Assembly (NCBI GenBank): GCA_021827985.1
Contig: JAKATL010000010.1
Location: 1-64,000, forward strand
DNA: 64,000 nt
Reading direction: 5' to 3'
DNA from: a bacterium
Lineage (GTDB): Bacteria > Chloroflexota > Dormibacteria > Aeolococcales > Bog-877
The position numbers and the translations under genes are program-made. Positions 29,465 to 33,123 of the stretch are shown here, piece by piece (position 1 is the stretch's first letter; every line of letters starts with the position of its first letter). The notes under the pieces are model-generated. The model had not been told where the DNA came from. It saw only the letters and a list, made by a program, of their open reading frames with translations, and did not search any database.

Positions 29465-30077
29465 TCAAGGCTGCGCTGACAGGCGGGCTATGACGTCTGC
29501 CCCGGCCCGACGACGTTCGGCCAGGTGCCGAATCCACGCGTCACTCATCTGGGTCAACTCCACCTCATTGCCATCCGGGTCGCGGACGGCGGTGACCCAC
29601 GAACCTTCCCCCAATCTCTCGATCGGATACAGGCACTCGATTCCCGTACGCTGCAGCCCCGCTACGTAGGTGGCTAGGTCAAATACCCACAGGGCGAAGC
29701 GTACTGGGCCGGCACCGGTACCGGGGTCGCCGGGATGAATCGCGAAGTGGACGTCGCCGAGTTCGCAGCCAAAGTGAGCCCCCGCGCCATGCTCCTCGGC
29801 GACCAGTGCAGACCTCCGGACATCCTGCTCTCCGATGGGGTGCAGCGGTTCCCTCGGGATTGGCTTGTCGGGGCGGGCATCGAAGTCAAGGAGACCGCCC
29901 AGCGGCGAGTCAGAGAAATTGACTGCACCACAATCATGTTCGACTCACCAAACTCGAATGTCCAGATCTCTGCAGTGGGAGCCCCAGCCCATCCCGGTAG
30001 AACGCCGCCAGCCGTGCCGGGTCGGGGGACCGGATCAAAACCGCTGACAGGAACTCGATGCGCTCTGCGTCGACCAA
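29465..30077 (-). pseudogene. VOC/glyoxalase-family gene interrupted by a 164-bp element
   Basis: Read on the minus strand from TTG 30077 (with GGAGGG 6 nt upstream) the frame gives a VOC N-terminus (SPDPARLAAFYRDGLGLPL), then runs into the insertion at 29972 and stops inside it. Beyond the insertion the same gene continues (VAEEHGAGAHFGCELGDVHF ... VTAVRDPDGNEVELTQ) to a TGA at 29465. Removing the element and one 5-bp duplication leaves 444 bp, exactly 148 codons, and joins PL directly to VAEEHG in frame. The ancestral product was a one-domain vicinal-oxygen-chelate protein of 147 residues. Confidence 0.88.
29809..29972 (-). mobile_element. MITE-like insertion, copy 1
   Basis: A 164-bp sequence identical, by direct reading, to 30674-30837 in the opposite orientation. 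It is flanked by a 5-bp direct repeat CAGTG (29804-29808 and 29973-29977). Its ends form an imperfect inverted repeat of about 17 bp (CAGA-N2-TC-N-GGACAT-N-C, 13 of 17 positions). It encodes no transposase, so it would need one in trans. It disrupts the VOC gene. Confidence 0.85.
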
Positions 30078-30326
30078 AGTTTGCCCTCCGCCGTCCACAC
30101 GTTGGCGAGATGAAGCCCATCGCCGGCCGAGTTGCGGGAGGCATTATGGCGCCACGTCGGCGGCGGCAGGGCCAGGCCGCCCTGGGTCGACTGACTCGCC
30201 CCGGGGGCCGCCGGCAGCTGTGCCCCGAGGGCGCGTCGAGTGGGCTCGGTGCAGGCTTGCAAAGCGAGGGAGTTCCCCAGCCCCTTCTGCGATCGATGGG
30301 TCTGCTGCCCCGCCGAGGCCGACCCG

Positions 30327-30491
30327 TCAGATGGTCCCTGGGGCACCGGGCCAGGACTCGCGAAGGTGGGCCCGCCTTCGGAGCCCGTCGTAGGCAGCGT
30401 ACTTGAAGCTGCCCGCTCGGCTCAGGAACTTGAACGCAGTGTCGAGGAACTCGTCTACCTTTCTGACCGCAGTGAGCACCGCCTGGGCTAC
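30327..30491 (-). pseudogene. duplicated 3' fragment of a SthA-like transhydrogenase
   Basis: The minus-strand frame reads AQAVLTAVRKVDEFLDTAF ... KYAAYDGLRR ... HLRES before a TGA, clearly homologous to the C-terminus of the broken sthA at 31669-33123. DNA similarity to 31.65-31.87 kb is extensive but imperfect, so the duplication is old or comes from a related source. No N-terminal part is present. Confidence 0.75.
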
Positions 30492-30673
30492 TCAAACCAT
30501 CTCGGTAGCTGCCCCGCCCGCGCGAGTCCCAACCGCCGATCAGATGACGGCGGAAACTCGGAGCCCAATGACCACCCCTGGGTGGGCCAGGCGCCTGCTG
30601 GCGGGGAGGTCCTTGCCGGACAGGGCTGCCACCCCCACGGTTCAGCCGGACCGCACCCCGGGCACGTTCAGTT

Positions 30674-30837
30674 CAGAGATCTGGACATTCGAGTTTGGTG
30701 AGTCGAACATGATTGTGGTGCAGTCAATTTCTCTGACTCGCCGCTGGGCGGTCTCCTTGACTTCGATGCCCGCCCCGACAAGCCAATCCCGAGGGAACCG
30801 CTGCACCCCATCGGAGAGCAGGATGTCCGGAGGTCTG
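30674..30837 (+). mobile_element. MITE-like insertion, copy 2
   Basis: Second 164-bp copy, in opposite orientation to 29809-29972. It is flanked by its own 5-bp direct repeat CAGTT (30669-30673 and 30838-30842), different from that of copy 1, showing two independent insertions rather than one segmental inversion. It lies between the sthA fragment and vapC. Confidence 0.85.
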
Positions 30838-30906
30838 CAGTTCAGGTCACGCAGTCGCGACAGGCATGACTCTGGCACTCGCGTCTCACATTGCGAGAGC
30901 CATGAG

Positions 30907-31308
30907 TCAGGAAGGTGCCGCGACTACCAGTCCACTGGCGGAGGCTGCCGTCTGCAGCCGGTCGTCATAGGTGAAGAAGACCCCGAGGTCAGGCCCGATC
31001 GCCATGGCCGTTGCCAAGTGGATGGCGTCAAGCGTTCTCAAATGCGCCGGCTCCAGCTCAGACGCGCGATCTAGCAGCGGCTCGTCGAGACGCACCAGCC
31101 GCATGGCGCCGATCAACCGGCGCGCTGCTCCCACCAGGTGACCGTTGCCCGAGCGCCGGAGCGCCCTGACCACCTCGGTCCTGATCAGCGTCGATGACAC
31201 TTGGTCGGGCCACCGGCCCAGGACCCGGCGCAGGGCCGCGGAATCTGGCTCGGCGACCACAAGCTTGACGAAGGCCGAACTGTCCAGGTACGCGACCCTA
31301 CCGCTCAT
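30907..31308 (-). CDS. vapC: PIN-domain toxin, VapC family
   Basis: 133 residues of a PIN domain. The acidic catalytic set is visible: Asp9 in AYLDSSAFVKL, Glu in RTEVVRAL, Asp in RTLDAIHLATA and Asp in TYDDRL. VapC proteins are site-specific ribonucleases that cut tRNA or rRNA. It overlaps the antitoxin gene by 11 bp, the usual order and coupling of a VapBC operon. Appears intact although its surroundings are decayed. Confidence 0.92.
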   Translation of the reverse strand: MSGRVAYLDSSAFVKLVVAEPDSAALRRVLGRWPDQVSSTLIRTEVVRALRRSGNGHLVGAARRLIGAMRLVRLDEPLLDRASELEPAHLRTLDAIHLATAMAIGPDLGVFFTYDDRLQTAASASGLVVAAPS

Positions 31309-31582
31309 CAGATCGCAGCTCGGACAGCGCCTCGGACGGGAGCATGGCTCCCACAGCTTCCGCCGGCAGTCCCAGGTTGTCGAGTAGGTCCAGTAGGTCG
31401 CCCGCGCTCTCGGTGGCTCTGCCCTCGAGCACCATCTGGTCCAGCACCCCTGGGTTGAGGGGCACGATCCTAGCGATTGGGTGCCCGTGCTCAGTGATCT
31501 GGATGGCCTCTCCGGCGGTCACCCGGCGGAGGATGGCGCTCGCCTGCAGTCGCAGCTCCCTAATGCCCACTGAGTAACTCAT
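31298..31582 (-). CDS. vapB: Phd/YefM-type antitoxin (VapB)
   Basis: 94 residues with the Phd/YefM N-terminus (SVGIRELRLQASAILRRV, then GEAIQITEHGHPIARIVPL), a DNA-binding fold that also represses its own operon, followed by a disordered acidic toxin-binding tail. Upstream of and overlapping vapC. The ATG at 31582 starts the conserved domain; another in-frame ATG lies three codons upstream. Confidence 0.9.
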   Translation of the reverse strand: MSYSVGIRELRLQASAILRRVTAGEAIQITEHGHPIARIVPLNPGVLDQMVLEGRATESAGDLLDLLDNLGLPAEAVGAMLPSEALSELRSDER

Positions 31583-31668
31583 GGTGTGCACATGGTAGCA
31601 CTAATGACCCGTGAACCTCCTCAGTACGCGAGCCCCTGCGGCGATCGATGGCGCGGCCGCGCGTCCGG

Positions 31669-33123
31669 TCACCTGCTCGTCAGTGGGCCCATGGCATCGG
31701 GCCCGGACTCGCGGAGGTGGTCCAGCCTCTGGAGCCCGTCGTAGGCGGCGTACTTGTAGGCGTCCGCCGGGCTCGGGAAGTTGAAGGTGGTGTCGATGAA
31801 CTCGTCGATTTTTCCGCCCGCATGAAGCACCGCCTGGGCCAGATGGACCAGTTCGGTGGCCTCCTCGCCCAATATGTGGGCCCCAGGAGGCGGCGGTCGG
31901 AGGCCCGGAACACCAGCTCGAGCAGCCCCTCACTGGAACCCGCGATCCCGGCCCGGGCGTTGCCCTCGAGGAGCGCTCGACCGGTCAGCACATCCTCACC
32001 GGCCGTCACCGCAGCCGCTTCCGTCAGTCCGATCATCGAGACCTCGAGAAGGGTGTAGATACCGGTGCGGACAAGGGGGTCCGCGGCGTCCTTGAAGTGG
32101 ATCTGGAAGGCGCGACACATGGCCACCCGAGCCTGCTCCATGCTCACAGACGCCAACCCGGGGGGACCGATGATGTCGCCGGCGGCAAAGATGCCGGCGG
32201 TGGTCGTCTGGAAGTCTCGGTCGACGAGGATGCGCCCCCCTGGCGTCGGCCTCCACCCCCACCTCGGCCAGGCCGAGCCCCTCCACGTTGCCGACCCTCC
32301 CAACGGCGTGGACCACCACATCGGGACGGAGGGGCCTCCAGTTCACCACCACCCGCAGCCCTCTGCGGTCCCGCCCCACGGAATCCACCTCGGTACCGGA
32401 CATGAACCTCACCCCGGCGCCACCCAGGATCCAGAGAGGCCAGACGAGACCTCCGCGTCGAGCACCGGAAGGAGACGCTGCCCTCGGTCCACCAGGGTTA
32501 CTCGAACACCGAGGGCGGCGAAGATCGAGGCATACTCGGAGCCAACCGGGCCGCCACCCACCACCATCATTTCCGATGGCAACCGCTCCATCGCCAGTAC
32601 GGTCTCGGAATCATGGACGTCCGGGTCCTCGAACGGTACCTCCGGTGGGTGCAGCGGGTGGGAGCCGGTGGCGATCAGGATCACCCCAGCTCGCAGAATC
32701 CGCTCATCGCCGTCGTCATCTCGCACTACCACGGTCAGATCGGGCCCAAGCCGCCCCTCACCCGGGACCACCTTCGACCAGGTGGCGCAGGAGGTTCTCC
32801 CGCCGCACGGTGGCCGTGCTGGCCATCACGTCGAGCGTCCGACGCCGAAGGCGGTCCATGGCCAGCTCCGGCGAGAGCCGGATCGCGATGCCTTAGGTCT
32901 CGCGGCGGGCCCACCCGGACAGGTATATGGCGGTGTCCTGGAGCGCCTTGACCTGGACTCCCCCCACGACGACGCTGGCAGCTTCGAGCGGACGGGTGCG
33001 GCGCTCCACCACGGCCACGCTATGGCCGTGGTAGGCGGCTTGGGCCGCCCCCTTCTCCCCGGCCGGACCGCCGCCGATTACGACCAGATCGAACTGGTCT
33101 CGATCGGGGGCGCTCGTTCTCAC
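31669..33123 (-). pseudogene. broken Si-specific NAD(P)+ transhydrogenase (SthA-like)
   Basis: Fragments in all three minus frames together cover a full soluble pyridine nucleotide transhydrogenase: FAD site FDLVVIGGGPAGEKGA at the N-terminus, ATGSHP and VVGGGPVGSEYASIFAALG in the NAD domain, GIFAAGDIIGPPGLAS, and the C-terminal EEATELVHLAQAV ... FIDTTFNFPSPADAYKYAAYDGL. Lesions include loss of about 8-9 residues where the GTIPSK-type segment should be, an in-frame TAA at 32893-32895, and frameshifts near 32765, 32420, 32235 and 31875. The gene is clearly inactive. Confidence 0.88.

Follow-up and report, generated by a model that had tools for sequence, protein, structure and literature searches.

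Two inverted copies of a 164-bp element

The window analysed here is a 64,000-nucleotide stretch of a bacterial MAG assembly (G000; 2.83 Mb in 80 contigs, 93% complete), and it carries two copies of a 164-bp sequence that we term element A. Copy 1 (positions 29809..29972, + strand) interrupts a gene on the - strand (29465..30077) for a VOC (glyoxalase-superfamily) protein, which comprises 147 codons without the element and one target duplication. Copy 2 (30674..30837, - strand) is 100% identical, lies in the opposite orientation and is spaced 701 bp from copy 1. Copy 1 is abutted on both sides by the 5-bp direct repeat CAGTG (29804..29808 and 29973..29977), and copy 2 by CAGTT (30669..30673 and 30838..30842).

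The ends of the element form an imperfect terminal inverted repeat of ~17 bp. In copy 1, the left end (CAGACCTCCGGACATCC, 29809..29825, + strand) agrees with the right end (CAGAGATCTGGACATTC, 29956..29972, - strand) at 13 of the first 17 bases, for which the naive chance of at least 13 matches is ~1e-5, and the consensus of these repeats is CAGANNTCTGGACATCC. Further inward, there is a subterminal GGTGCA box at element position 31 (29839..29844, + strand) and an inverted TGCACC box at position 116 (29924..29929, - strand). The 164 bp contain no transposase ORF. The identical inverted copies, their flanking 5-bp repeats, the terminal inverted repeat and the lack of an internal transposase had all been described in the original prediction, and each is borne out by our reading of the sequence.

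Several other features are present in this neighbourhood. Between the two copies (30340-30560) is a duplicated, now decayed version of the 3ˊ end of the neighbouring gene at 31669-31872 (- strand), with frames reading ...KFLSRAGSFKYAAYDGLRRRAHLRESWPGAPGT versus ...FNFPSPADAYKYAAYDGLQRLDHLRESGPDAMG. This duplicate predates the MITE insertions, because the same-genus genome G003 has it as well. Genes for a PIN-domain toxin and a Phd/YefM-type antitoxin (30907-31591, - strand) adjoin copy 2. At 31669-33123 (- strand), the reading of an oxidoreductase resembling dihydrolipoamide dehydrogenase is split over several frames, which suggests frameshifts or a pseudogene. A scan of the region with Rfam gave one sub-threshold chance match and nothing else, and nothing resembling a promoter or terminator was seen in 29700-30950.

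A third copy, empty sites and restored reading frames

A search of the G000 assembly with a cut-off of E<=0.001 revealed a third copy of element A, of which the original prediction was unaware, and no others. It is located on a different contig (G000:C17:37369-37532), is likewise 100% identical, and splits the OrfB transposase gene of an IS3-family element. Its target duplication is CATCT (AGATG in the orientation of the element). Each of the three copies in this genome is at an unrelated site and has a 5-bp duplication that differs from the other two.

Natural empty alleles exist for all three sites. The 2.4 kb of the window that span copies 1 and 2 align with G003 at 94.3% identity, and both elements are absent from G003. 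In their place are a single AAGTG at the first site, one substitution away from CAGTG, and CAGTT once at the second. For the third site, an IS3 paralogue that is 86% identical and lies on the same contig as the third copy (locus L023) is free of the element and carries CATCT once. These same-genus and within-genome empty sites are the strongest kind of sequence evidence for very recent transposition in this uncultured lineage.

Removal of the element also repairs the interrupted genes. When copy 1 and one CAGTG are removed, a 147-residue frame with a TTG start is read from 30077 to 29465 on the - strand, and the protein matches Glyoxalase (PF00903, E 7e-13) in Pfam; its homologue in G003 is intact and 98% identical. 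Removal of copy 3 brings the IS3 OrfB back in frame, and the joined protein matches rve (PF00665, E 2e-20). Thus, this MITE inactivates genes, including the transposase of another mobile element. The restored VOC protein, which the original prediction had offered as proof of insertion, holds up and now has its Pfam match. Further copies and empty alleles, proposed there as checks, were found as the third copy, a 95% identical copy in another genome (G017, below) and the single target sequences exactly at the predicted junctions. Natural empty alleles at three sites, in-frame restoration at two and several non-orthologous locations confirm the description of element A as a MITE-like non-autonomous insertion with a 5-bp target duplication.

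The IS3-family element that carries the third copy (L003) and its uninterrupted paralogue (L023, G000:C17:107459-110857) share a contig and have diverged to 86% identity; they are ~1.76 kb long including the MITE, with ends TGTGGCCCTA...TAGGGCCACA. We rule out this IS3 element as the helper of element A, because its ends begin TGTGGCCCTA, unlike the CAGA of the MITE.

Age of the insertions

Comparison of the flanking sequences of G000 and G003 reveals 134 differences among 2362 aligned bases (5.7%). Had the copies been present since these two genomes diverged, ~14 substitutions would be expected on the G000 branch in 3 x 164 bp, and none are seen. This deficit supports recent movement, which the original prediction had deduced from copy identity and which is the simplest reading of three identical copies. 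Gene conversion between the copies is a possible alternative source of their identity.

Distribution and related elements

A search of 110 genomes of the class found element A only in G000, apart from the single 95% identical copy in G017, which belongs to another genus of the same family. Close copies are thus present in two genera, and a 400-genome sample of the phylum yielded nothing beyond G000 and G017. The site in G017 is unrelated to those in G000, and the copy there is flanked by AACCG and AACTG, a duplication that has since undergone one change. A PIN-like frame lies near this copy, together with a small adjacent frame that has no Pfam match.

Other searches returned no additional members. 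Plasmid blastn searches with element A, the related element B (below) or the left end of the candidate insertion sequence (IS) gave short, weak matches only. An 18-mer of the end gave chance 18-base matches in genome_contigs and viral_contigs, except for the copy already known from G017 (L016). A 29-base match to element A in another genome (G036) was rejected because it sits in unrelated sequence, and one family of end-like matches (f3, AAGATGTCYGGACATTC) was rejected because it is coding sequence reading MSGHSKWSSIKHKKAL and is conserved across species.

Searching with the end consensus uncovered three further elements in G017, each 165 bp long and flanked by a perfect 5-bp duplication. These are element B (C93:32776-32940, AGGGT), element C (C155:93181-93345, AGGTT) and element D (on C108, AAATT). 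The interiors of A to D are ~40-70% identical pairwise, which is above shuffled controls in almost all comparisons. GGTGCA occurs at position 31 in all four (in B, on its other strand), and the inverted TGCACC occurs at 116-117 in A, C and D, specifically at 117 in C and D. Given the same ends, a length of 164-165 bp, the GGTGCA box and the above-control homology, element A is a member of a family with a constant length and a common plan, rather than a single chance deletion product. The terminal inverted repeats are conserved across these four related subfamilies, and the target duplication is 5 bp at all seven MITE sites seen.

As a separate observation, G017 (L044, contig C8) and G015 (L045, contig C79), which are counted as different species, have 3.2 kb in common at 99.7% identity, for which recent transfer, a shared mobile region and binning carry-over are alternative explanations.

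A candidate helper insertion sequence in G017

Five contigs of G017 (C10, C26, C75, C88 and C89) stop ~125 bp inside a repeat with MITE-like ends, as is expected of assemblies, which break at multicopy elements. Three of these contigs carry the end CAGACGTCTGGACATGA followed by the last 34 codons of an ORF on the inward strand (...HGLCADLSQLGATFPGTDIPVTYEVAVHHSELAA*), and the other two carry the end CAGATGACTGGACATCG, an AT-rich stretch and then the start of an ORF (METAPDHQEEFELEA). Both ends fit the MITE consensus, and one of them (IS_L) has 16 of 17 bases in common with a MITE end (C_L); the left end of element A matches the MITE and IS ends of G017 as well. The IS gene is readable from its 34 C-terminal residues and from ~15 N-terminal residues, whereas its body is unassembled in G017 and absent from every assembly searched. 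From its position between MITE-like ends, we infer that this gene encodes a transposase. The best candidate for an autonomous partner of the MITEs is thus this IS, a multicopy coding element that bears their ends.

The 34-residue C-terminus had no match in NCBIfam, PHROG or PDB, and none above chance in Pfam. Matches to it by tblastn were rejected in Gloeothece, where the strand is opposite to the annotated genes, and in Streptomyces, where both matches are antisense to a TetR-like frame.

Pairing of the IS flanks permitted reconstruction of two target sites. At one, a methyltransferase frame is restored (PF08241, E 7e-22), and at the other, the insertion lies in an open frame that has no counterpart in Pfam. 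The two sites each parse as 6-bp duplications (CAAGGG and CAGATG), compared to 5 bp for the MITEs. However, the two sites share the base at that position, so that a duplication of 5 bp fits as well, provided that the IS extends one base further at one end; the difference is thus not a contradiction.

The original prediction had concluded that an active transposase must reside somewhere in this genome. In the 93%-complete G000 assembly, the only pairs of matching ends (up to 2 mismatches) are the MITE copies, and the search revealed no autonomous element there whose ends are close to theirs. This claim is only partly supported, the candidate autonomous element being in the relative G017.

Mechanism and alternative explanations

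Element A is very probably a MITE mobilized in trans by a transposase recognizing its ends, with the G017 IS as the best candidate for the source of this enzyme. Its transposition history, target duplications, ends and family members can be read directly from the genomes compared, as can the coding element with matching ends in a relative. We infer that the MITE is moved by the transposase of this IS, or by a close relative of that enzyme, and that the host has or once had an enzyme of this kind. The transposase, presumably of the DDE type, would act in trans on both inverted ends of the MITE and make 5-bp staggered cuts in the target that give rise to the 5-bp duplications, and movement could occur by cut-and-paste or by copying. 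The subterminal GGTGCA boxes may serve as a second binding site for the transposase. A more speculative proposal, which we regard as rather unlikely, is that these elements are an old, independently evolving MITE lineage in which the constant length of 164-165 bp and the conserved GGTGCA/TGCACC boxes reflect a transposase that requires a pair of sites at each end, a fixed distance apart, and that the helper is an IS of an undescribed family.

Unlikely on balance, yet a serious alternative, is that another transposase with similar ends, one not yet seen, acts as the helper and that the G017 IS is only its cousin. The 5-bp duplications at seven MITE sites, set against the 6-bp parse of the two IS sites, would favour such an enzyme, as would the occurrence of element A in G000, where the search found no matching IS end. 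Countering this, a one-base shift of the IS boundary would remove the discrepancy in duplication length, and the near-identity of C_L and IS_L points back to the G017 IS.

We also considered whether element A might be a structured repeat, REP/BIME-like or otherwise, that spreads through recombination or a Y1-type transposase rather than through a DDE-type enzyme, and judge this very improbable. Element A is an imperfect palindrome that folds into an imperfect long hairpin with some internal pairing, although such a hairpin is expected from a partly palindromic MITE. When folded as RNA, the family yields a fitted consensus that looks covarying, but leave-one-out folding is inconsistent (p <0.001 to 0.7) and shared ancestry confounds the analysis. 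For these reasons, we do not claim a conserved folded internal RNA in this family. Moreover, single-strand Y1 transposition makes no target duplications, and the perfect duplications and matching empty sites of element A contradict this explanation. Finally, it is scarcely credible that the two copies in the window arose through misassembly or through inverted duplication of a segment: a MAG assembly with identical copies so close together might raise this concern, but their identity ends at the element boundaries, the similar duplications aside, every copy is flanked by a duplication of its own, another contig carries a third copy, and the sister genome G003 has both empty sites.

Returning to a MITE moved in trans, the end consensus can be used as bait for finding the helper transposase.

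Comparison with known systems

Tn3 elements generate a target duplication of 5 bp and have ~38-bp terminal repeats beginning GGGG. The Tn3-derived TIMEs (PMC4133298) are likewise small and non-autonomous, but a TIME origin was rejected because the ends of element A begin CAGA, not GGGG.

Of the families tabulated in PMC2266710, two emerging ones related to IS4, IS1634 and ISH3, come nearest in their ends and duplication length. IS1634 elements have 5-6 bp duplications and ends of the form C-----YT. The duplication length fits and the MITE ends also start with C, but position 8 is mostly C rather than T, so that most ends do not fit the IS1634 consensus. ISH3 elements have 4-5 bp duplications, often of the form A...T as in B, C and D, and ends beginning CRGT. 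The MITE ends share the CRG, but position 4 is A in 12 of 12 ends, not T, which does not fit ISH3; furthermore, ISH3 has been reported from archaea only, whereas G000 is bacterial. For the G017 IS, the comparison with IS1634 and ISH3 transposases is confined to the 34-residue C-terminus, which has no profile match.

Prokaryotic MITEs are shorter than 500 bp, have terminal inverted repeats of 4-30 bp and flanking direct repeats, lack a transposase gene and are partly palindromic (PMC10969869). Element A resembles them in being a short, multicopy, non-coding and partly palindromic sequence with terminal inverted repeats and direct repeats, and its target duplication is accompanied by three empty alleles. 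Ends shared with a candidate autonomous element are seen in G017, where the body of that element is unassembled, and not in G000. There are also differences. The family has a GC content of 59-62%, whereas prokaryotic MITEs are AT-rich, and copies 1 and 3 are inside genes, whereas MITEs are said to prefer AT-rich intergenic sites (PMC10969869). A further difference from prokaryotic MITEs generally is that, in the genomes searched, these elements are confined to a single bacterial family. It is a new, GC-rich MITE family of a well-known kind of element.
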